From Dyella sp. ASV24 (lineage in GTDB: Bacteria; Pseudomonadota; Gammaproteobacteria; Xanthomonadales; Rhodanobacteraceae): DNA of 64,000 bases. Shown one piece after another: positions 9,710 through 19,804 of the stretch. The notes under the pieces are model-generated. The model did no database searches. It was not told the DNA's origin and was given only the letters and a program-made list of their open reading frames with translations. Position numbers and translations under genes: made by a program. Location of the stretch: NCBI RefSeq assembly GCF_016428905.1, contig NZ_JAELTQ010000002.1, forward strand, positions 62,001 through 126,000, given 5' to 3'. Numbering within the stretch: the first letter of the stretch is position 1; every line of letters starts with the position of its first letter.

Positions 9710-10231
9710 TTAGGCGTACTTCGCGGGTGCCGGATTCAGGTGCCCGCATTCCACGCAGGTGCGGGCATCGATTGAGCGGTAGAAGCGTTCGAACACGGGT
9801 GGGAAATCCTGCTCAATGCTGTCGAGGGTGAAGTACTCCTCGTACAACTTGTGGTTGCAGCGCTCGCAGTACCACATCAGGCCGTCTTTCTCGCCAGCGA
9901 GGCGTCGCCGTTCGATCACCAGGCCGATAGATTCGGGCATGCGTTGCGGTGAGTGCGGCACGCAGGGTGGAAGGTAGAACATCTGGCCCGCGCGGATCGG
10001 AATGTCGCGCAGCATGCCCTCGTCCTGCACCTTCAGCACCATCTCGCCTTCGAGTTGGTAGAAGAACTCCGGACCTTCGTCATAGTGGAAGTCCGTGCGC
10101 GCGTTCGGGCCGCCCACGATCATCACGATGAAGTCGCCGTCCACGATGCACTTGTTGCCGACGGGCGGTTTCAGCAGATGACGGTGTTCGTCGATCCAGC
10201 GTTGCAGGTCGATGGGTGGCGTCAGGGCCAT
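9710..10231 (-). CDS. nbaC: 3-hydroxyanthranilate 3,4-dioxygenase
   Basis: Cupin-fold Fe(II) ring-cleaving dioxygenase that converts 3-hydroxyanthranilate to aminocarboxymuconate semialdehyde, in the kynurenine route to NAD or in tryptophan breakdown. From the chosen start the Fe ligands fall at His49, Glu55 ([12 protein letters not shown]) and His93 (PCVPHSP). A C-terminal rubredoxin-like Cys4 site, CERC at 122-125 and CVEC at 159-162, is typical of bacterial forms. The start at 10231 (MALTPPID) is preceded by GGAG at good spacing and gives 173 residues; a longer in-frame start at 10261 looks wrong. No other kynurenine-pathway gene lies nearby. Confidence 0.93.
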
Positions 10232-10284
10232 GTAGGGCTCCGTCGGTGGGGAGGGCGACAAACGGGGAGTGTAAGCACCACGGC

Positions 10285-11355
10285 TCAGTCGATCCAGCGC
10301 CCCTCGCGGAGCACTGTTTCCAGGCGAGACCGCTCGTCGGGCTGGTGGAGACCTGCGCGATCCAGCCAGTCTTTATCGTAGTAGGAGCCGCTGTAGCGAT
10401 CACCGCCGTCGCAGATAAGGGTGACCACCGGACCGTGCTCGCCTCGTGTTTTCATTTCAGCCATCAGCTGCAGTGCACCGACCAGGTTCGTACCGGTCGA
10501 GCCTCCGCATCGGCGCCCGAGTAGTGCTTCCAGGAGGCCAAGGGCGGCGATGCTGGCCGCATCGGGGACGCGCAGCATGCGGTCGATGACGCCGGGCATA
10601 AACGATGGTTCCACACGCGGACGACCGATACCTTCGATACGGGAGCCGCGCGACAGCTGCAGACTTGGATCGCGATGGTGGTAGTAGTCGTAGAACACCG
10701 AGTGTTCCGGATCGACCACGGCCAGTTGCGTGCGCTCGAGCTGACCGCCGCGATAACGGATATAGCGGCCAATGGTGGCGGAAGTGCCGCCCGTGCCAGC
10801 CGGCACGACAATCCAGCGCGGGGTGGGATCGGGCTCGTGCTGCATCTGCCGGAAGATCGATTCGGCAATATTGTTGTTACCGCGCCAGTCGGTGGCGCGT
10901 TCGGCATAGGTGAACTGGTCCATGTAGTGGCCGCCGATCTCGTTGGCCAGCTGTTGCGCGGCACCGTAGACATCGGTGTTATCGATGAGGTGACAGTGGC
11001 CGCCGAAGAACTCGATCTGCGCGATCTTGTCGCGTGAGGTGCTGCGCGGCATCACCGCAAAGAAGGGCAGCTCAAGCAGCCGTGCGAAGTAAGCCTCGGA
11101 AATCGCCGTGCTGCCGCTGGACGCTTCCACCACGGGGCGTCCCTGCTCGAGCCAGCCGTTGCAGATGGCATAGAGGAACAGTGAGCGCGCCAGCCGGTGC
11201 TTCAGGCTGCCGGTGGGATGGACCGACTCGTCCTTGAGGTAAAGCGGAATGCCGGGAAACGCTGGGAGATCCAGCCGGATGAGGTGCGTGTCGGCCGAGC
11301 GGTGGGCCTCGGCGTCCAGCGTCTGGATGGCGCGGCTGATCCAATGGGCGTGCAT
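10285..11355 (-). CDS. PLP-dependent cysteine synthase/desulfhydrase family protein
   Basis: Fold-type II PLP enzyme of 356 residues. The PLP lysine is in [14 protein letters not shown], the Asn/Ser cofactor site in [15 protein letters not shown] and the glycine-rich phosphate loop in [18 protein letters not shown]. It resembles L-cysteine desulfhydrase Cds1 and cysteine synthase homologues more than housekeeping CysK/CysM: the tail is longer and the active-site loop reads SSGSTA rather than TSGNTG. Reaction could be cysteine to pyruvate, ammonia and sulfide, but this is inferred. It is about 50 bases upstream of the dioxygenase gene on the same strand and could share its transcript. Confidence 0.8.
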
Positions 11356-11427
11356 TCCGCGAGATTAGCACCCGCCCAGGTGAACGCCTTGTCCCCGATC
11401 ATGGACAAGGCGCTGCGGCCTTTGCGA

Positions 11428-12786
11428 TCAGGGCGACCAGCCCAGGCTGTGAGCCAGCGAGCGACCGGTGAGTCGATAACCGTCCGGGCTGAGGTGAATC
11501 AGGTCGTGGCCCATCAGGCTGGGTTGCGCATGCGCCCAGCCGTAGCTACCGCCTTGTCCACCCATGAGGTCCTGCCAGCTCCAGGCTGCGCAACCGAAAC
11601 GGCTACCCACGTCCCGTTGTACCTGTTCGATGCGCTGGTGTACGCGGCTGTAGGTGAGCAGCGGTAGCGTGCCACCCTTGCCCTGGCGCAACACGCCGCG
11701 GTCAGGCGGCCCCACCAGCACACACGATGCCTTGGGAAATACCTGCCGCATATTGCCGAGCGCGCGCTCCAGCATCGCGGCGTACTTCTCGGCGTCGAAG
11801 TCCGGGTCGGCGCCTTCGTTGGTACCGAATTCCAACAACACGCCGTCGTAACTCACGCCGTGCAGTGATTGGGCGAACGAGCTCGGATTGACGTTGGCCC
11901 AGCCCTTTACCGTCGCGGAAGGCAGGCCGAATACGTCGAAGCTGACATCGGGCATCTGCGGGCGATCAAGGATGAAACCCTGCAGCACCAGCTTGCCCTG
12001 CGATACGCGCAACTTGATGGTGGACATGGCGCCGTTGGTACCGAGCGCCAACGCCTGGCTGGTATTCGTCGCCGGCAATGTCACGGTGCGCTGTGCGCCA
12101 TCGTCGATCACGTAATCGATCGTTGCGCCAGCCGGCGCGCTGTAAATCACCTGGAGCTGGCGCACATCGGCTTGCCGCGAGGGATTGCGCACGTCGAGCC
12201 AGACGTAGCTGTCCGGCCCGGCATCGACGACGCGGTTGGCCAACCCTGGTCCGATGTCGAGCGGTGATGGCGAGGTGTAGGCGATGTCGGTCGTCCAGCT
12301 CGAGCCGATGCAGTACGCGCGCAAGCCTGGGAGCACCACATTGGCGCGGCCCATGGTCGGTGGCAGCAGGCGAGGGGCGACGCTCAATCCCTTGTCGCGC
12401 AGCGACTGGATTAGCGTCGATGCAAACGGACCGCCGGCGATATGGCTGTCTCCCCAGATGGCGATGCGTCGCGGTTGCTCGCTGTTGCCGGGTGCGAATC
12501 CAGTAAGGGTCTGTGCATCAACCAGGGGTTGCGGACGAATGGTTGTCCTGGCCAGCGGGCCGAGTTCGGCGTCGCTGGGCATCTGGGTGCCGCTCATGTT
12601 TACGCGGGCGGCGGGGCGTCCTGGCACCGGCTTGGGTGGAGCTGGCGGCGCGTTGGGGCAGACCAGGTCACTGACGCCGCCAAACGACGCAGGGGCGTCC
12701 TGGGCTTGAGCGGGAAGGCTGCAGGAAAGAGCGGAAAGGCCAGCGCACCAGGCACTGATCATCAAAAAACGTGTTACTGGTGCCAT
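11428..12786 (-). CDS. Secreted SGNH/GDSL-type hydrolase-like protein
   Basis: Exported protein of about 452 residues. It has a Sec signal peptide ending near LPAQAQDA and a Pro-rich stretch, then an SGNH-fold domain: block I IWGDSHIAGG (Gly-Asp-Ser), a GTN-like block III in LLEFGTNEGAD and the terminal DxxH in DLIHLSPDGY. SGNH domains act as carbohydrate esterases or acetyl-group transferases on glycans. I chose ATG 12786 because GGAG lies 10 bases upstream; the longer frame uses a TTG at 12810. It directly follows, and is probably coupled to, the acyltransferase gene whose stop is at 12807, suggesting a joint role in acylating or deacylating an envelope polymer. Confidence 0.8.
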   Translation of the reverse strand: MAPVTRFLMISAWCAGLSALSCSLPAQAQDAPASFGGVSDLVCPNAPPAPPKPVPGRPAARVNMSGTQMPSDAELGPLARTTIRPQPLVDAQTLTGFAPGNSEQPRRIAIWGDSHIAGGPFASTLIQSLRDKGLSVAPRLLPPTMGRANVVLPGLRAYCIGSSWTTDIAYTSPSPLDIGPGLANRVVDAGPDSYVWLDVRNPSRQADVRQLQVIYSAPAGATIDYVIDDGAQRTVTLPATNTSQALALGTNGAMSTIKLRVSQGKLVLQGFILDRPQMPDVSFDVFGLPSATVKGWANVNPSSFAQSLHGVSYDGVLLEFGTNEGADPDFDAEKYAAMLERALGNMRQVFPKASCVLVGPPDRGVLRQGKGGTLPLLTYSRVHQRIEQVQRDVGSRFGCAAWSWQDLMGGQGGSYGWAHAQPSLMGHDLIHLSPDGYRLTGRSLAHSLGWSP

Positions 12787-12806
12787 GCGCCATATGCTCC
12801 GGTCAT

Positions 12807-15305
12807 TCAAGAATCCGTGCCCGCGAGGTTCTCGGGCAGGCCATTCTGCTTCAGATACGCAAGGTGTTTCTTGCGCAGCTTCATGGTGTAGATGCCATCG
12901 GGTGTTTCGCTGAGGATCAACTGCAGATCACGCACGACGTCGCCGCGCTCACCCAGGTGGAACGTCTGTGCCAGCACGCTCTCTCGCGTATACGTATTGG
13001 GCGAGGCGGAGTGCGGGCGACCCAGTGCCGCCACGCAACGCCAGCGTACGAAGCCGATGGGTTTGACGACGTCGCCCGCTTCATTCGTCCAGCCCTGCGT
13101 CGAGATGCGGTTGGCGACTTCGATCTGCTGGGCGGGCGTAGCTTCGGCAGGGGTAGGGGCAAACTGATCGCCGCCCCAGGTTTTCCAATCGTCCACCGAC
13201 ATGCCCAGCCCACCAGAATGACGACCGCCGTTCTGCCAATTGGCATCCGTCTCGCAGCGGGCCATCTTGTTCCAGTAGTCGTCGCTGGCCACCGGTTGCG
13301 GGGCGAGTTCAAGCGTGGGCGAAAGATCACCCGTGGCATGAGATGCCGTAGTCTCGGCCGTGTCTGCTGCTGCGGTTTCCGCCTTGTCACGCGCCAGGTG
13401 ACCCGAGCGCATGATTTCCGTGATGAAGGCCCGCTGGCCAATGGTGGTCAAGTGAACGCCGTCGGAAACGAAGTAGTCGGGCTGATTGTCCGACGCGTCG
13501 TTCCAACGCACGGTGACCACGTTCGGGAAGTCAGGTGCGACATGGTCGATCAGTGCGTTGTTGGCTTCCATCCAGCGACGTGGCACGTGCGTGTTGACCA
13601 GCACGACGCGCTTGCAGTCGGACAGCATGGAAAGGATCTGTCGCAGCTGATCTTCCGTGACGTAGCCGTTGGTTCCCAGGTGCACCAACGCCACCTCGCG
13701 TACAGCACCTGCGCTCTTGAGTGTCTTGATCTGACGGATGACGTCGGCAGCTTGCCAGCCCATCGTTGCGTGCACGTCCGCGCCGGGCAGCGTGGCCTTC
13801 AGCAGGCGGCTGGAGCCTAGTAACACGGAGTCGCCCACGGCCGTCAGTTCGTCACCGGTGAAGGTTTCCACGGCCGGTTGATCCGGTTGCGTGTCGACCA
13901 CCGGTGCAACCACGGGCTCGACAGGTGCTTCCACCGATACGGCAGGAATCGGGGTGAGCGTGTCCTGCACTTGAATCGGCGCCACCGGTGCACTGAGGTC
14001 GAGTGCCTCGCGCACGTCTTGCGCGGGCTTCGCTTCTGCGGGTGCGTGCCAGAGCGAGACGCCCATGGAGGTGAACACCAGCACCAGGGTGGCGATCACT
14101 GCCACGCGCCCCGACCATGCGTGCCGGCGAGGGTTGGTGAAGATGCGTCCAAGCGCGCCACGGCGAATGGGCATTTCCAGATAGCGGTAGGAGAGTGCTG
14201 CCACGACGAGTGTCAGCACGATGCGCACGACGAGCACCGAGCGGTTATCCAGCGCGCGCAGATCGATACCCGGACGCGTCAGCATGAACACCGGCCAGTG
14301 CCACAGGTAGATGCCGTAGGAGCGTTCACCGATCCAGCGCATCACAGGATTGTCGAGGCAGCGGCCGAACGCCATGCCCGGGTGCGTGGCGATCATGATC
14401 AGCGCGAGGGACGTCGCAGCAGCGGCAAGGAAGCCCCACGGGTAAAGCCTGGGCGTGTCTTCGCCCATCATGGCAAACAGCGCAATCATGCACGTCAATG
14501 CGATCAGGCCGAGCAGCCAGCCGGTGGCGCGAGCCATCACGCCCGGGCGATCCAGTTCAGGCGAGGGTTGCCAGAGCAGACCCAGGGCCGAACCGAGCAG
14601 CAGGGCGAAGCCGTGGGTATCGGTACCGAAGTACAAACGCGACGGATCGCCTTGTCCGGGATAGCCGATCTTGTGCGCCAGCAGTGCCATCCACGCGGCG
14701 GAAGCTGCGGCAAGCGCGATAGCGATGAACGCCATGCCGCGACGCTTCATGCGCGGTAGAAGAATGAAGGCCAGCGGCGCCCACAGAATGTAGAACTGCT
14801 CTTCGATGGCGAGCGACCACAGGTGTTGCAGCAGCGGCGGCCGGCCCGTGGCTTCGAAGTAAGAGGTCTGGCTGCGCAGCAGCTCCCAGTTGGTGACGTA
14901 GGCAAGCGACGCGACGACGTCGTTGCGCAGATGGGGCAGCGCGTCGCGCGCTACCCACGCCGACACAGCCACTACCGCTGCCATCATTAGCCACGAAGCG
15001 GGAAGCAGGCGTTTGGCGCGACGCCAGTAGAAGTCACGCAGATCCAGTCGGCCTGTGCGGTCCACTTCGCGGGCCATCAGCCCCGTGATGAGGAAGCCGG
15101 AAATGACGAAGAACAGATCGACGCCGAGGTAGCCACCCCGCGCCCAGTAAAAATCAGCATGGAAAAGCACGACCGCCGACACCGCCATGGCCCGGAGGCC
15201 ATCGAGTCCGGAAAGTCGTGTCTGTACGGATGGAACGATCTGCGTGGTGACTGCTGCCACATCCGGGTGGCCTTCCACTTCCTGTGGATACTCTGCGAGT
15301 AGCAT
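12807..15305 (-). CDS. Acyltransferase-3 / SGNH protein with a C-terminal Rpf (lysozyme-like) domain
   Basis: 832-residue envelope protein. Residues about 30-385 form a polytopic acyltransferase-3 (OafB/OatA-type) domain: LDGLRAMAVSAVVLFHA, GGYLGVDLFFVISGFLIT and SLAIEEQFY. A linker leads to a periplasmic SGNH domain near 485-640 (AVGDSVLLGSS, HLGTNGY, SDGVHLTT). Unusually, residues about 677-760 match the resuscitation-promoting-factor/transglycosylase-like fold: ARCETDANW with the catalytic-type Glu, GGLGMSVDDWKTWGG, PAQQIEVANRI and the second Cys in RWRC. The last 50 residues (LGERGDVVRDLQL then PDGIY) look like a truncated peptidoglycan-binding motif. The likely role is O-acylation of peptidoglycan or another periplasmic glycan; the tail would give glycan recognition or cleavage. 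Fusion function is inference. Confidence 0.85.
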   Translation of the reverse strand: MLLAEYPQEVEGHPDVAAVTTQIVPSVQTRLSGLDGLRAMAVSAVVLFHADFYWARGGYLGVDLFFVISGFLITGLMAREVDRTGRLDLRDFYWRRAKRLLPASWLMMAAVVAVSAWVARDALPHLRNDVVASLAYVTNWELLRSQTSYFEATGRPPLLQHLWSLAIEEQFYILWAPLAFILLPRMKRRGMAFIAIALAAASAAWMALLAHKIGYPGQGDPSRLYFGTDTHGFALLLGSALGLLWQPSPELDRPGVMARATGWLLGLIALTCMIALFAMMGEDTPRLYPWGFLAAAATSLALIMIATHPGMAFGRCLDNPVMRWIGERSYGIYLWHWPVFMLTRPGIDLRALDNRSVLVVRIVLTLVVAALSYRYLEMPIRRGALGRIFTNPRRHAWSGRVAVIATLVLVFTSMGVSLWHAPAEAKPAQDVREALDLSAPVAPIQVQDTLTPIPAVSVEAPVEPVVAPVVDTQPDQPAVETFTGDELTAVGDSVLLGSSRLLKATLPGADVHATMGWQAADVIRQIKTLKSAGAVREVALVHLGTNGYVTEDQLRQILSMLSDCKRVVLVNTHVPRRWMEANNALIDHVAPDFPNVVTVRWNDASDNQPDYFVSDGVHLTTIGQRAFITEIMRSGHLARDKAETAAADTAETTASHATGDLSPTLELAPQPVASDDYWNKMARCETDANWQNGGRHSGGLGMSVDDWKTWGGDQFAPTPAEATPAQQIEVANRISTQGWTNEAGDVVKPIGFVRWRCVAALGRPHSASPNTYTRESVLAQTFHLGERGDVVRDLQLILSETPDGIYTMKLRKKHLAYLKQNGLPENLAGTDS

Positions 15306-15410: not shown

Positions 15411-17300
15411 TCAAACCTCCAATGTCGCCAGATCGCCTTTTTCCTCAAGCCACGCCTTGCGGTCGCTGGCGCGCTTCTTGGCAAGCAGCATGTCCATCAG
15501 CTTGGTCGTGCCATCGTCGCCTTCCACGGTGAGCTGCACCAGGCGGCGTGTGTCCGGGTGGATGGTCGACTCGCGCAACTGGCCCGGATTCATCTCACCA
15601 AGGCCCTTGAAGCGGGTGGTGCTGACCTGGCCCTTCATCTTCTCGCGCTGCACGCGTTCGAGCATCGCGTTCTTCTCGTTTTCGTCCAGGCAGTAGAACA
15701 CCTGCTTGCCCACGTCCACGCGGAACAGGGGCGGCATGGCGACGAATACATGTCCTTCGCGAACCAGTGCCGGGAAGTGCCTGAGGAACAGCGCACTGAG
15801 CAGCGTTGCGATGTGCAGGCCGTCGGAGTCCGCGTCCGCAAGGATGACCACCTTGCCATAGCGCAGGCCTGACAGGTCGTCCTTGCCAGGGTCGCAACCA
15901 ATGGCGACGGCGAGGTTGTGCACTTCTTCGGAGGCGAGCACCGAACTGGACTCGACTTCCCAGGTGTTGAGGATCTTGCCGCGCAGCGGAAGGATCGCCT
16001 GGAATTCCTTGTCGCGTGCTTGCTTGGCGCTGCCGCCCGCCGAGTCGCCTTCCACCAGGAACAGCTCGGTGCGGGTGAGGTCGGTGGCCGTGCAGTCGGC
16101 GAGCTTGCCGGGCAGGGCGGGGCCTTGGGTAATCTTCTTGCGCACCACCTGCTTGGCGGCCTTCAGGCGTGCACTGGCGCGCTCGATGGCGAGCTGGGCG
16201 ATGCGCTCACCCAGGTCCACGTGTTGGTTGAGCCACAGGCTGAAGGCATCGTGGATGACGCCTTCGACCATGCCAGCCGCATTGCGTGAGGACAGGCGCT
16301 CCTTGGTCTGGCCGGCGAACTGCGGATCTTGCAGCTTGGCCGACAGCACGAATGCGAGGCGCTCCCACACGTCTTCCGGCGCAAGCTTTACGCCGCGCGG
16401 CAGCAGGTTGCGGATGTCGCAGAACTCGCGGATGGCGTTGGTAAGGCCCGAGCGCAGGCCGTTCACGTGCGTGCCGCCCTGTGCCGTGGGAATCAGGTTG
16501 ACGTAGCTTTCCTGCACCAGCTCGCCTTCAGGCAACCAGGCCAGCGCCACATCAAGACCATCGGCCTCGCGCTGGATGTGGTGCACGAACAGTTCCGCCG
16601 GGATCGCCTCGGCGCTGGACAGCTCATCGCGCAGGTAATCGCGCAGGCCGTCTTCGTAGTACCACTCGTTGACGTCGCCCGTGGCTTCGTCGACCAGCTT
16701 CACGTTGAGGCCGGCGCACAGCACGGCCTTGGCGCGCAGGAGGTGACGCAGCTTGCCGAGCGAGATCTTCGGCGAATCGAAATACTTCGGGTCGGCCCAG
16801 AAGCGCACGGTGGTGCCGGTCTTTTTCTTGGGTACCGTGCCAATGATCTCGAGCTCGCTGGCGCGATCGCCGTTCTCGAAGGCCATGCGGTATTCATTAC
16901 CGTCGCGGCGGATGGTGACTTCCACGCGATTGGACAGCGCGTTCACCACCGATACGCCCACGCCGTGCAAGCCGCCGGAGAAGTTGTAGTTCTTGCCAGA
17001 GAACTTACCGCCCGCGTGCAGACGCGTGAGGATCAGCTCGACGCCCGGCACGCCTTCTTCCGGATGGATGTCCACCGGCATGCCGCGACCGTCGTCGCTC
17101 ACCTCGACCGAGCCGTCGGTGTGGACGATCACCTCGATGGATTTGGCGTGGCCGGCGAGGGCCTCGTCCACCGAGTTGTCGATCACTTCCTGCGCCAGAT
17201 GGTTCGGGCGGGAGGTGTCCGTGTACATGCCGGGTCGGCGCTTGACCGGGTCAAGGCCAGAGAGGACTTCAATGTCGGCGGCGTTGTAGCGACTGCTCAT
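15411..17300 (-). CDS. parE: DNA topoisomerase IV subunit B ParE
   Basis: ATPase subunit of topoisomerase IV, which decatenates replicated chromosomes with ParC. GHKL ATPase motifs are present: the Asn motif in EVIDNSVDEALAG, the Asp/Gly motif in DDGRGMPVDIHPEEG and GLHGVGVSVVNALS. The TOPRIM motifs EGDSAGGSAKQARD and ILADADSDGLHI lie near residues 410-500. Length of 629 residues without the large GyrB insert identifies ParE rather than GyrB. The start ATG at 17300 (MSSRYNAADIEVLSGL) agrees with the family. Confidence 0.96.
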   Translation of the reverse strand: MSSRYNAADIEVLSGLDPVKRRPGMYTDTSRPNHLAQEVIDNSVDEALAGHAKSIEVIVHTDGSVEVSDDGRGMPVDIHPEEGVPGVELILTRLHAGGKFSGKNYNFSGGLHGVGVSVVNALSNRVEVTIRRDGNEYRMAFENGDRASELEIIGTVPKKKTGTTVRFWADPKYFDSPKISLGKLRHLLRAKAVLCAGLNVKLVDEATGDVNEWYYEDGLRDYLRDELSSAEAIPAELFVHHIQREADGLDVALAWLPEGELVQESYVNLIPTAQGGTHVNGLRSGLTNAIREFCDIRNLLPRGVKLAPEDVWERLAFVLSAKLQDPQFAGQTKERLSSRNAAGMVEGVIHDAFSLWLNQHVDLGERIAQLAIERASARLKAAKQVVRKKITQGPALPGKLADCTATDLTRTELFLVEGDSAGGSAKQARDKEFQAILPLRGKILNTWEVESSSVLASEEVHNLAVAIGCDPGKDDLSGLRYGKVVILADADSDGLHIATLLSALFLRHFPALVREGHVFVAMPPLFRVDVGKQVFYCLDENEKNAMLERVQREKMKGQVSTTRFKGLGEMNPGQLRESTIHPDTRRLVQLTVEGDDGTTKLMDMLLAKKRASDRKAWLEEKGDLATLEV

Positions 17301-17491
17301 GCGGGAAAGTGGACAGCAAGGTTAATCGCGGGAGGATGAGTGGCGGGCGCGGGGAGGTCAAGCATTGACACGATCTTGCGGTGTTTCAGGGGCCTTGTGG
17401 GGGTCGCTGGCTGCCCCGGCATGACCAGCCACAAGGCCGCCGGGCTGCGTACATACATATAGTTAGCGGCTGTCCGTCTTGCCTGGGGGCA

Positions 17492-17989
17492 TCAGTCAGG
17501 ATAGGTCTTGCCGATCCGGTGCCGGGGCGTGAGATAGATCCCTGCGGTGTAGGAGCGGGGCTCGCCATGTGCGCTGAGCTGGCCCCAGGGTAGCTCCCAG
17601 GTACTGCCGAATGCAGGGGCATGGGTGAACGTGGCATGGTCGGCGGGGCGGCCCAGCGCAGTTTGCGCCATGCGCATCAACACCCGGATTTCCTGCTTGA
17701 GCAGGGTCTCGTTGATCCGGTTCCAGTCGAACGGGCTCATGGGGCCATTCACGAGACGGATGGACAGGCCGGCCCCGCGACCGCGGTAGAACGTCAGCGC
17801 AACCTGCAGCCGGCACGCGTCGATGGTTTCCTGCCAGCCGTTGAGCGTGAGCAGGTCTGGCACATATGAATTGGGGTGGTGGCTAAGCCCAGCGTAGACC
17901 CGGGTCTGCTCAAAGGCGGCCAGTTCGCCATCGACGGCCAGCGTTTCGCCAGCGCCGAAATCCACGATGCCCCCGGGCAGGTCAAGCAT
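17492..17989 (-). CDS. Conserved hypothetical protein downstream of pepP-like gene
   Basis: 165-residue protein I do not recognise. It has no signal peptide or membrane segment. It begins MLDLPGGIVDFGAGE and has a mixed alpha/beta character, with notable aromatic and Asn/His patches (GLSHHPNSYVPDLLTLNGW, FDWNRINETLLKQEIRVL). The start codon lies 16 bases after the stop of the aminopeptidase gene, so the two are likely co-transcribed. It could be a cytosolic accessory protein, but nothing in the sequence points to a reaction. Confidence 0.6.
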   Translation of the reverse strand: MLDLPGGIVDFGAGETLAVDGELAAFEQTRVYAGLSHHPNSYVPDLLTLNGWQETIDACRLQVALTFYRGRGAGLSIRLVNGPMSPFDWNRINETLLKQEIRVLMRMAQTALGRPADHATFTHAPAFGSTWELPWGQLSAHGEPRSYTAGIYLTPRHRIGKTYPD

Positions 17990-18004: not shown

Positions 18005-19804
18005 TCAGAGTGGTGCGCAATGCCGCTCGAGCCATGCCAGGTCGGCGTCTTCCAGTAATGGCGCCAGTGCTGCGCGGACGGTGGCGTGGTAATCGTCCAG
18101 CCAGGCACGTTCCTCGGGATTGAGCAGGCTGGGTTCCAGCGCACGACGGTCGAACGGGCACAGGGTCAGCGTTTCGAACCCATAGAATTCGCCGAACTCG
18201 GTCCTTTCGGCCTCGACCACCACTGCCAGGTTCTCATGGCGGATGCCGTGACGGCCGGGTTTGTACAGGCCCGGTTCGATCGATGTGATCATGCCCGGGT
18301 CCAAAGGCACCAGCGTGGCGCCGGAGGCGGGCGGGCGGATGCCGTGCGGCCCTTCATGGACATTGAGGAAGTAGCCCACGCCGTGGCCGGTGCCATGGCT
18401 GTAATCCATGCCGCTGGCCCAGAGTGGGGCGCGAGCCAGTGCGTCAAGTTGGGGGCCACTGGCTCCTTTCGGGAAGCGGGCGCGGCTAAGGGCGATCATG
18501 CCCTTCAAGACGAGTGTCGCATCGCGCCGTTGCTCAGGTGTGGTTTCGCCCAGGGCAAGCACGCGTGTGATGTCGGTGGTGCCACCCAGATACTGACCGC
18601 CGGAGTCGATCAGCAGCAGGCCCTGAGGCTTGAGTGTGCTGTGCGCCTCCGGCGTGGCGCGGTAATGCGGCAGCGCGCCGTTGGCCATATAGCCGGCGAT
18701 GGTCGAGAAACTCTCGCCGACGAAGTTCGGTTGGGCCGAGCGCTCTTCGCGCAGGAGGGTGTCCACATCCAGTTCGGTCTGCGTCATGCCGGCGGTGACG
18801 CGCTCCTCCAGTCTGCGGAAGGCGCGTGCGAGCGCTGTGCCATCCCGGCGCATCACGTCGCGAATATGTTCCAGCTCAGCTTCCGTCTTGCGCGACTTGA
18901 GCAGGGTGGATGGATTGGCGGCCTCGACCAGTTCCGTCGCGCGGGGAATCGCGGCGGCCACGGCCACCACGACGCGGTTGCCGTCGAGCAGCAGGCGATC
19001 CTGCGCGCCGAGCTCGGAAAGCGCGTCTGTCACCGTGCCGTAATCAGCGATACGAATCTGATCGGTGCCGAGCGCGCTTACGAGCGCATCGGTGAGCTTG
19101 CCGCGATCGACAAACAGCGTGGCGTGACCTTCTGCCTGCACCAGCAGGTGGGCGAGGAACACTGGGTTGCACTCGACGTCACTGCCGCGCAGGTTGGTCA
19201 GCCAAGCGATGTCATCAAGGCTGGAGACCAGGTGGTGAGTTGCGCCCAGTTTGCGCATGGCAGTGCGCAAGCGGCCGAATTTGTCGCTGCGCGGCTGGGT
19301 CGCATAACGGATGGCGTGCTCAATAACGGGAGCGGAGGGCAGGGCCGGGCGATCCGGCCAGATCAGTCCGGGCAGGTCCAGGTCGGTGCGCAAGCGGGCG
19401 CCGATGCGCTCCAGGCGTTGCTTAAGCTGTCGTGCGCCGGCCAATGGAAAACTGTCGCCAGCAATGGCGAGGGTTTGTCCCTCGGACAGATGGTCCAGCA
19501 GCCACTCGATGTGTTCGGGCGCATGGGCTACGCGCTGCTTCATCAGGTCAACACCGCTACCGGCCAATTCGGTGGCGGCCTGCGCGAAATAGCGGCCATC
19601 GGTCCACAGTCCCGCGTGGCTGGCGGTGACCACCAGCGTTCCCGCCGAGCCCGTGAATCCGGAAAGCCACTCGCGGGCTTGCCAGTGCGCGGGCAGGTAT
19701 TCGGAGAGATGCGGATCGGCGCTGGGGATCAGGCAGGCGGCAACGTCGTGCTGCTGCATGGCTTGCCGCAGGGCGGCCAGTTTCGTCGGCGTGGTGTGGT
19801 CCAT
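18005..19804 (-). CDS. Xaa-Pro aminopeptidase (M24B family, three-domain type)
   Basis: Metalloaminopeptidase that removes an N-terminal residue preceding proline. At about 599 residues from MDHTTPTK it is of the long, three-domain type common in eukaryotes and some bacteria, not the E. coli PepP size of about 440. Two creatinase-like N-terminal domains precede the pita-bread catalytic domain. Metal ligands are visible: LLIDSGGQYLGGTTDITR (two Asp), GTGHGVGYFLNVHEGP (His), MITSIEPGLYKPG (Glu) and the terminal HENLAVVVEAE (Glu). The frame opens at a TTG (19858), but the family match begins at the ATG 19804. It is probably cytosolic. Confidence 0.9.
   Translation of the reverse strand: MDHTTPTKLAALRQAMQQHDVAACLIPSADPHLSEYLPAHWQAREWLSGFTGSAGTLVVTASHAGLWTDGRYFAQAATELAGSGVDLMKQRVAHAPEHIEWLLDHLSEGQTLAIAGDSFPLAGARQLKQRLERIGARLRTDLDLPGLIWPDRPALPSAPVIEHAIRYATQPRSDKFGRLRTAMRKLGATHHLVSSLDDIAWLTNLRGSDVECNPVFLAHLLVQAEGHATLFVDRGKLTDALVSALGTDQIRIADYGTVTDALSELGAQDRLLLDGNRVVVAVAAAIPRATELVEAANPSTLLKSRKTEAELEHIRDVMRRDGTALARAFRRLEERVTAGMTQTELDVDTLLREERSAQPNFVGESFSTIAGYMANGALPHYRATPEAHSTLKPQGLLLIDSGGQYLGGTTDITRVLALGETTPEQRRDATLVLKGMIALSRARFPKGASGPQLDALARAPLWASGMDYSHGTGHGVGYFLNVHEGPHGIRPPASGATLVPLDPGMITSIEPGLYKPGRHGIRHENLAVVVEAERTEFGEFYGFETLTLCPFDRRALEPSLLNPEERAWLDDYHATVRAALAPLLEDADLAWLERHCAPL

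Follow-up and report, generated by a model that had tools for sequence, protein, structure and literature searches.

We analysed a 64,000-nucleotide stretch of the Dyella sp. ASV24 genome (contig NZ_JAELTQ010000002.1, positions 62,001 to 126,000 of the forward strand; hereafter the window), in which a minus-strand gene at 12807-15305 joins an acyltransferase-3 (AT3) domain and an SGNH domain to a resuscitation-promoting factor (Rpf) domain and a short peptidoglycan-binding-like module. We read this fusion gene and the adjoining gene, which encodes an Ape1-like SGNH protein, as a Gram-negative peptidoglycan O-acetylation/de-O-acetylation unit, in which an OatA-type transferase would stand in place of PatA/PatB and the tail would be muralytic or glycan-gripping. 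The probability of this reading is estimated at about 0.6. Its basis, computed here, consists of the domains, the conserved catalytic residues, the fold, the selection on the tail, the gene pairing and the phage-type affinity of the tail.

An earlier note on this DNA, made from the letters alone, had proposed an acyltransferase with an Rpf-like tail at this place. The open reading frame (ORF) exists at 12807-15305, all the motifs quoted in the note are present, and its numbering of Glu685 is correct, with the two cysteines at C684 and C757. The fusion gene has the following features.

12807..15305, minus strand: fusion gene, 832 aa, in the order AT3, hydrophobic stretch/linker, SGNH, linker, Rpf, peptidoglycan-binding-like module (ORF, Pfam, near-full-length relatives)
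14187..15212, minus strand: AT3 domain, residues 32-373 (PF01757, E 1.2e-38, 133 bits)
13851..14108, minus strand: residues 400-485, a hydrophobic stretch from 400 (putative 11th transmembrane helix, by eye), then a Pro/Ala/Val-rich linker (sequence; poorly conserved)
13401..13850, minus strand: SGNH domain, residues 486-635, with GDSV at 491, GTNG at 544 and DGVH at 615 (phmmer match to 6vjp, Foldseek, invariant columns)
13011..13301, minus strand: Rpf (transglycosylase-like) domain, residues 669-765 (PF06737; RpfB 3eo5)
13251..13253, minus strand: codon of Glu685, the equivalent of RpfB Glu292 (invariance in alignments)
12831..13010, minus strand: short peptidoglycan-binding-like module, residues 766-825 (common to phage proteins; model match)

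Domains, fold and conservation of the fusion protein

An assembly error was rejected because nine further records (L036-L044) match the fusion protein over almost its entire length, and a tenth (L102) was identified by its ORF; together with the strong domain scores, these records also rule out a chance fusion. In the Foldseek and structure-comparison lists examined, no match spans the SGNH, Rpf and binding parts together.

For the Rpf part, Pfam placed PF06737 (Transglycosylas, the Rpf family) at residues 673-739 with 47.2 bits (cut-off 27, E 3.6e-12). Mycobacterium tuberculosis RpfB was matched by phmmer at 5e-5 from the whole protein and at 4e-10 from a profile of the 11 fused tails. The RCET motif begins at residue 683 and gives Cys684 and Glu685, and RWRC, which begins at 754, gives the second cysteine. 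The tail (residues 665-832) was modelled with the more diverse alignment A5, and the mean predicted local distance difference test (pLDDT) was 93; A5 is the 39-row alignment A4 without L181, L203 and L184 (whose first codons had been written as M) and without L198 and L195. An earlier model of residues 483-832, based on alignment A2, had a confident SGNH domain, but most of its Rpf part was below pLDDT 50. Residues 12-100 of the tail model fit RpfB 3eo5 with a Z of 13.6 and a root-mean-square deviation (rmsd) of 1.1 Å over 77 residues, and the other Rpfs gave Z values of 11.2 (RpfC crystal structure; 6.1 for the RpfC NMR model) and 11.0 (RpfE). The c-type lysozymes followed at about 6. Foldseek of the tail model also ranked RpfB first (E 8e-4). 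The Rpf domain and the lysozyme-type fold foreseen in the earlier note were confirmed by the Pfam check and the structure prediction, and so were its catalytic Glu and Cys pair: the Glu, both Cys, the GGL motif and the STQGW block do not vary among the 11 fused tails. The equivalents of RpfB Glu292 and Gln347 are kept in the same 11, and the catalytic Glu in all 39 rows of A4. We assign the domain to PF06737, and not the protein to Rpf. Rpf proteins were called confined to actinobacteria in 2005 (PMC1084345), which describes their range and does not define them, and the occurrence reported here breaks that range.

The 133 bits of the AT3 domain compare with a Pfam cut-off of 31 for PF01757 (Acyl_transf_3), and the SGNH part scored a weak 13.6 bits. 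When the whole protein was compared by phmmer with solved structures, Staphylococcus aureus OatA (6vjp) came first through the SGNH part (E 2.8e-17), followed by RpfB, RpfC and RpfE. The SGNH model fits 6vjp in Foldseek with a TM-score of 0.90 on the target and an rmsd of 1.6, and all top five matches of the SGNH part, in the model of residues 483-832, are OatA structures. The Ser, Asn and Asp-x-x-His columns are invariant across 34 aligned rows. From sequence and fold, the fusion is probably an OatA-type AT3-SGNH enzyme, with putative acetyl transfer to O-6 of N-acetylmuramic acid (MurNAc). The earlier description as OatA/OafB-type therefore holds in its first half only; an OafB-type O-antigen enzyme is not favoured, since OatA is the first match of the SGNH part by both phmmer and Foldseek.

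The peptidoglycan-binding-like part had been called a remnant. Its presence was upheld, but it looks like a module because it is conserved in all 12 aligned rows and shows low omega. Residues 103-166 of the tail model match peptidoglycan-binding domains at Z 5-6, a level that, as the tool warns, may reflect a common arrangement only. The Pfam family PG_binding_1 (PF01471) has no match in the fusion protein up to E 10; it reached 17 bits, below the cut-off of 23, in the phage relative L177, and none was reported in four other scanned phage relatives.

Omega was estimated by NG86 over nine pairs, which share sequences and many of which have synonymous divergence (dS) above 1. The ranges were 0.08-0.21 for Rpf, 0.06-0.30 for the peptidoglycan-binding-like module, 0.05-0.20 for SGNH and 0.08-0.29 for AT3, with 0.17-0.63 for the first linker (residues 400-485) and 0.09-0.86 for the second, which is missing in four of the nine pairs. 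In the closest pair, omega is higher for Rpf (0.10) than for SGNH (0.05). These values fit a tail kept by purifying selection and are a rough measure, because sequences are shared, dS exceeds 1 and Rpf stands above SGNH in the closest pair. Given the same values, a degenerating tail is not favoured.

Distribution and phage-type kin of the tail

We carried out the survey of the fusion that the earlier note had suggested, and the fusion proved rare. PF06737 was present in 5 of 101 relatives. The tail profile matched 7 of 398 sampled genomes of the order, and since every match sits in an ORF of 844-942 aa, there is no stand-alone tail copy among the candidates scored in the order. Of 398 sampled Pseudomonadota genomes, two had an Rpf match, and that of the window alone was above the cut-off; the other (G451, 22.8 bits, below the cut-off) is a 211-aa ORF without other domains and was set aside. 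The candidates scored per genome numbered at most 13 (398 Pseudomonadota genomes), 12 (398 of the order), 17 (one further genome search), 21 (166 actinobacterial genomes) and 8 (395 actinobacterial genomes). The fused relatives belong to Dyella, Rhodanobacter, unclassified Rhodanobacteraceae, a Thermomonas metagenome-assembled genome (MAG) and three further MAG records, with L102 added by its ORF; the taxonomy of MAG records L042-L045 and L102 is as labelled. The record of L044 is titled as a Klebsiella pneumoniae MAG; its fusion is close to those of two other MAG records, its genome measures 2.1 Mb, and the label looks wrong.

The AT3-SGNH relatives were the best 80 of 383 loci, and the other 70 loci among these are mostly actinobacterial, chloroflexal and Bacillota proteins, some of them cut by contig ends. 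In L105, the ORF begins as AT3 and ends RND-transporter-like by eye, probably on a chimeric contig. A tree of 79 rows was built by a quick method without bootstrap, leaving out L105 and L108. The 11 fused proteins and the tail-less L045 form one set in it (at 100), which stands in an open fork with Nanopelagicales-type actinobacterial rows. Because L045 lies inside the fused set, the tail needs two changes on the tree, such as one gain and one loss. No tail remnant beyond chance was found at the L045 C-terminus, as 112 of 500 shuffles scored as high.

In annotated collections, the tail matched 98 phage records (90 of Mycobacterium, seven of Rhodococcus and one with the host unnamed) as well as 28 plasmid records, which without exception come from actinobacterial genera. 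No phage or plasmid record among these covers 80% of the tail. A scan of viral contigs with alignment A1 alone returned no relative. With A3, which aligns the window's own Rpf domain with 11 actinobacterial ones, the scan returned 543 relatives, the best 80 of which were kept. Among these 80, 21 loci match the whole tail, Rpf and peptidoglycan-binding-like module, in one alignment (15 after removal of near-identical ones), and the best of them is 40% identical over 177 columns (E 2.7e-37). An apparent signal peptide was seen by eye in the six phage proteins whose frames were inspected. Five phage proteins were scanned for a C-terminal SLT/lysozyme-type domain, which exceeded the cut-off in L177 and L203, stayed under it in L166 and L217 and was not detected in L164. 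The chains of L177 and L203, and more weakly L166 and L217, thus carry two distinct lysozyme-type domains with the peptidoglycan-binding-like module between them. The contig of the best phage relative (L264), the only full-tail phage contig whose wider surroundings were examined, harbors two WhiB-like genes at 17413-17745 and 19442-19753 (56.6 and 51.1 bits, cut-off 23.6). WhiB is a hallmark of actinobacteria and their phages.

In the Rpf-domain trees, the fused rows group with the phage rows in a single set that contains no cellular row (100/99 with 76 rows and 99/99 with 64 rows), and the fused rows make up one side of a branch (98/89 and 98/85, respectively). Both trees rest on 87-89 columns, and long-branch warnings were given for the 76-row tree. 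The 64-row tree includes 12 of the 37 actinobacterial domains and 14 new cellular relatives of the same subfamily, with L202 and L309 left out. The whole-tail search matched 39 of 166 and 79 of 395 actinobacterial genomes, at the Rpf part or at the binding part and never at both, so that Rpf plus peptidoglycan-binding-like module in one ORF is not among the matches in these samples; most of the 79, from the class of G941, match at the Rpf part. An apparent full-tail match in G941 (7-159) was spurious, as it crosses stop codons and has no convincing peptidoglycan-binding module beyond. An Rpf subfamily in which Gly replaces the classical Gln after GGL/GGV is common in the class of G941 (L310-L323).

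Among the relatives found, the tail is closest by sequence to lysin-like proteins of environmental phages and not to the sampled cellular actinobacterial Rpfs. The shared set, the shared two-module block and the WhiB contig lead us to regard it as of actinophage-lysin type, and we infer a transfer of the tail from phage to bacterium. Derivation from a cellular actinobacterial Rpf instead of a phage lysin has rather poor odds. Cellular Rpfs of the GGLG subfamily do exist, both in L130/L309 (48% identity over 94 aa) and in large number in the class of G941, and the fused and phage rows, sister groups in the 64-row tree (94/97, not starred), are left open in the 76-row tree, so that the direction is not proven. 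However, no cellular row enters the joint set of fused and phage rows, and the two-module block is common to fused proteins and phages while absent from the matches in the 166 and 395 actinobacterial genomes.

The adjoining gene and its site

Three further genes define the surroundings of the fusion.

11428..12810, minus strand: gene of the Ape1-like SGNH protein (phmmer 4k3u; Pfam Lipase_GDSL_2; conserved beside the fusion)
15411..17300, minus strand: parE (named by eye), upstream edge of the pair (conserved flank, empty-site comparison)
10285..11355, minus strand: pyridoxal-phosphate (PLP)-lyase-like gene (named by eye), downstream edge of the pair (directly after parE in 12 of the 16 genus genomes without the pair there)

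The TTG start of the neighbour overlaps the fusion stop by 4 bases, and an alternative in-frame ATG lies at about 12786. The earlier note had taken the product for an SGNH protein, which we can refine to Ape1-like. Its best solved relative is 4k3u (phmmer E 1.2e-10), which we take to be Neisseria meningitidis Ape1 (NmApe1); the structure table says GDSL-like lipase, and the code was not found in two papers checked. PF13472 (Lipase_GDSL_2) was matched with 36 bits (cut-off 32.9). PF18099 (CBM35) scored 15 bits at 204-272, below the cut-off of 23, and falls between GDSH and the rest of the SGNH domain. GDSH, [FY]GTN and D..H are kept in 10 of 10 aligned neighbour copies. The neighbour is an Ape1-like SGNH protein, with a putative esterase activity. 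Ape1 has been placed in GDSL-2, and the carbohydrate-binding module (CBM) of NmApe1 is inserted in its SGNH domain (PMC9487903).

The neighbour adjoins the fusion in the window and in 8 of 10 other fused loci, and the contig of L043 ends too soon. Only one of the 70 non-fused loci among the best 80 of 383 has it alongside, namely L045, which belongs to the same clade. After parE, 19 genus genomes carry the fusion (3), the PLP-lyase-like gene (12), the next gene on, at 9710-10261 (3), or neither (1). As a result, the pair is missing in 16 of the 19 at the site after parE, the only one examined; PF06737 is absent from the whole of those 16 genomes, where the neighbour gene was not searched for. 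From this comparison, the pair resembles a cassette of two genes occupying a single site. No parE was found in the flanks of the fusion in L041. The stretch after parE (window 9710-15305; L279-L297) varies within the genus, in that a genome may lack the fusion pair, the PLP-lyase-like gene or both.

The host genome (635 contigs, completeness given as 100) has no match to MBOAT (PF03062), for which control matches were obtained in 3 of 14 genomes; no PatA was therefore detected.

Proposed function and comparison with known systems

For the function of the pair, we infer that the group is acetyl, that the substrate is peptidoglycan, that the neighbour acts as an esterase, that the tail cuts and that these steps are coordinated. 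The AT3 domain would move an acyl, probably acetyl, group across the inner membrane, and the periplasmic SGNH domain would pass it to the glycan, most likely to MurNAc O-6. Peptidoglycan is the presumed substrate because the fused SGNH domain is closest to OatA and the neighbour is closest to 4k3u. The Rpf domain, on a flexible linker and aided by the peptidoglycan-binding-like module, would grip the glycan and probably cleave the bonds between MurNAc and N-acetylglucosamine (GlcNAc) wherever O-6 is unsubstituted. The product of the neighbouring gene, the Ape1-like protein, would strip the acetyl groups, so that acetylation would limit where the fused cutter acts and the esterase would re-license cutting.

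A more daring version, possible in our view though with the odds somewhat against it, makes the captured phage-type lysin block the cutting arm of a self-limiting wall-remodelling enzyme. The Rpf arm would cleave, acetyl groups would cap neighbouring MurNAc against the enzyme itself and other transglycosylases (or invading lysins), and the Ape1-like partner would reopen the sites. If true, this would be, to our knowledge, the first Rpf-type enzyme shown to function in a Gram-negative host and the first case of an OatA coupled to an Ape.

Several observations weigh against the proposed acetylation/de-acetylation unit. The RpfB residues described as binding tri-N-acetylglucosamine are Glu292, Gln310, Asp312, Thr315, Gln347 and Ala351 (PMC11978375). 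All 11 fused tails differ from RpfB at the equivalents of Gln310 and Asp312, and eight of the 11 have Asp in place of Thr315; no aligned position was obtained for Ala351. Because an O-6 acetyl blocks lytic transglycosylases (PMC6174289), the two halves of the fusion would work against each other at a single residue. At 1e-4, the neighbour has further matches in 8gkd and 8gld, two SGNH proteins for which the structure table gives no function. The fusion occurs without the neighbour in L042 and the gene pair without the tail in L045, and three further AT3 matches in the host genome are possible acetylators. Regarding selection, the lowest omega of the second linker (0.09) is as low as that of Rpf, and the shared sequences and the many dS values above 1 count here as well.

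The residue changes bear directly on an alternative that we consider unlikely, in which the tail has little or no catalytic activity and, as a glycan-binding module, only brings the SGNH domain to peptidoglycan. It would account for the altered Gln310, Asp312 and Thr315 equivalents, and the attached peptidoglycan-binding-like module fits a transferase that needs to find its glycan. Nevertheless, Glu685 is invariant in the fused tails and throughout A4. Moreover, among 28 viral rows, the Gln310 equivalent is Gln in one (Gly in 27), the Asp312 equivalent is Asp in none and the Thr315 equivalent is Thr in 22, and yet the phage proteins are probably active. The low omega fits binding and catalysis alike.

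We consider it quite unlikely that the enzyme acylates a different glycan of the periplasm or surface (O-antigen, exopolysaccharide or osmoregulated glucan), with the tail only positioning the enzyme at the wall. AT3-SGNH proteins work on several glycans (PMC9558356), and the AT3 part of the fusion matches the phage O-antigen acetylase profile phrog_6705 at 5.7e-75; however, both SGNH parts are similar to enzymes of peptidoglycan, and the tail belongs to a peptidoglycan-lytic type.

AT3 domains have been described in fusion with SGNH domains and with alanine racemase domains, besides other fusions in Eukarya (PMC9833829). No description of an AT3-SGNH-Rpf protein was found in titles or abstract starts of the open-access literature searched, and the word transglycosylase is absent from the main text of PMC9558356 and PMC9833829. 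The parts are known singly, whereas the combination, the phage-type tail and the Ape1-like partner are new as far as the literature was searched. The finding records an Rpf domain from outside Actinobacteria, and the nearest kin found for this domain are phage lysin-like proteins. In peptidoglycan, O-acetylation and lytic cleavage are known to regulate one another, and in the systems we read about the two activities reside on separate proteins. Here, both domain types lie on one chain, with a probable esterase adjoining, in a Gram-negative in which no PatA was found, and their coupling is directly testable because of this arrangement.

Compared with RpfB, RpfC and RpfE, the fused tail has the PF06737 domain, the catalytic Glu and the Cys pair in common, whereas it sits on a membrane acyltransferase in a Gram-negative host, replaces GGLQ/GGVQ by GGLG (or GGLD, GGLA) and has an insert before the second Cys. 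The phage lysin-like proteins (IMG/VR contigs such as L177) share the Rpf plus peptidoglycan-binding-like block; they lack AT3-SGNH, and the bacterial fusion lacks the second lysozyme-type domain. OatA, the Gram-positive peptidoglycan O-acetyltransferase A, has the same AT3 and extracytoplasmic SGNH architecture, the SGNH domain being closest to that of S. aureus OatA in sequence and fold, and AT3-SGNH relatives of the fusion occur in Bacillota and Actinomycetota; the fusion differs in its Gram-negative host and its C-terminal Rpf and peptidoglycan-binding-like tail. The neighbour shares the SGNH motifs and a W.WQ..MGG stretch with 4k3u, presumably NmApe1, whereas the CBM35 part is weakly seen in it. 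Like the PatA/PatB/Ape1 system (the O-acetylpeptidoglycan, or OAP, cluster), the pair would unite a transferase and an Ape1-type SGNH protein in one gene cluster, but a single AT3-SGNH protein replaces MBOAT PatA plus PatB, and the transferase bears a muralytic-type domain. In Neisseria, the lytic transglycosylase LtgA and Ape1 form a complex and stimulate each other (PMC7083599); by analogy, the fusion would be a covalent variant of LtgA-Ape1-like coupling.

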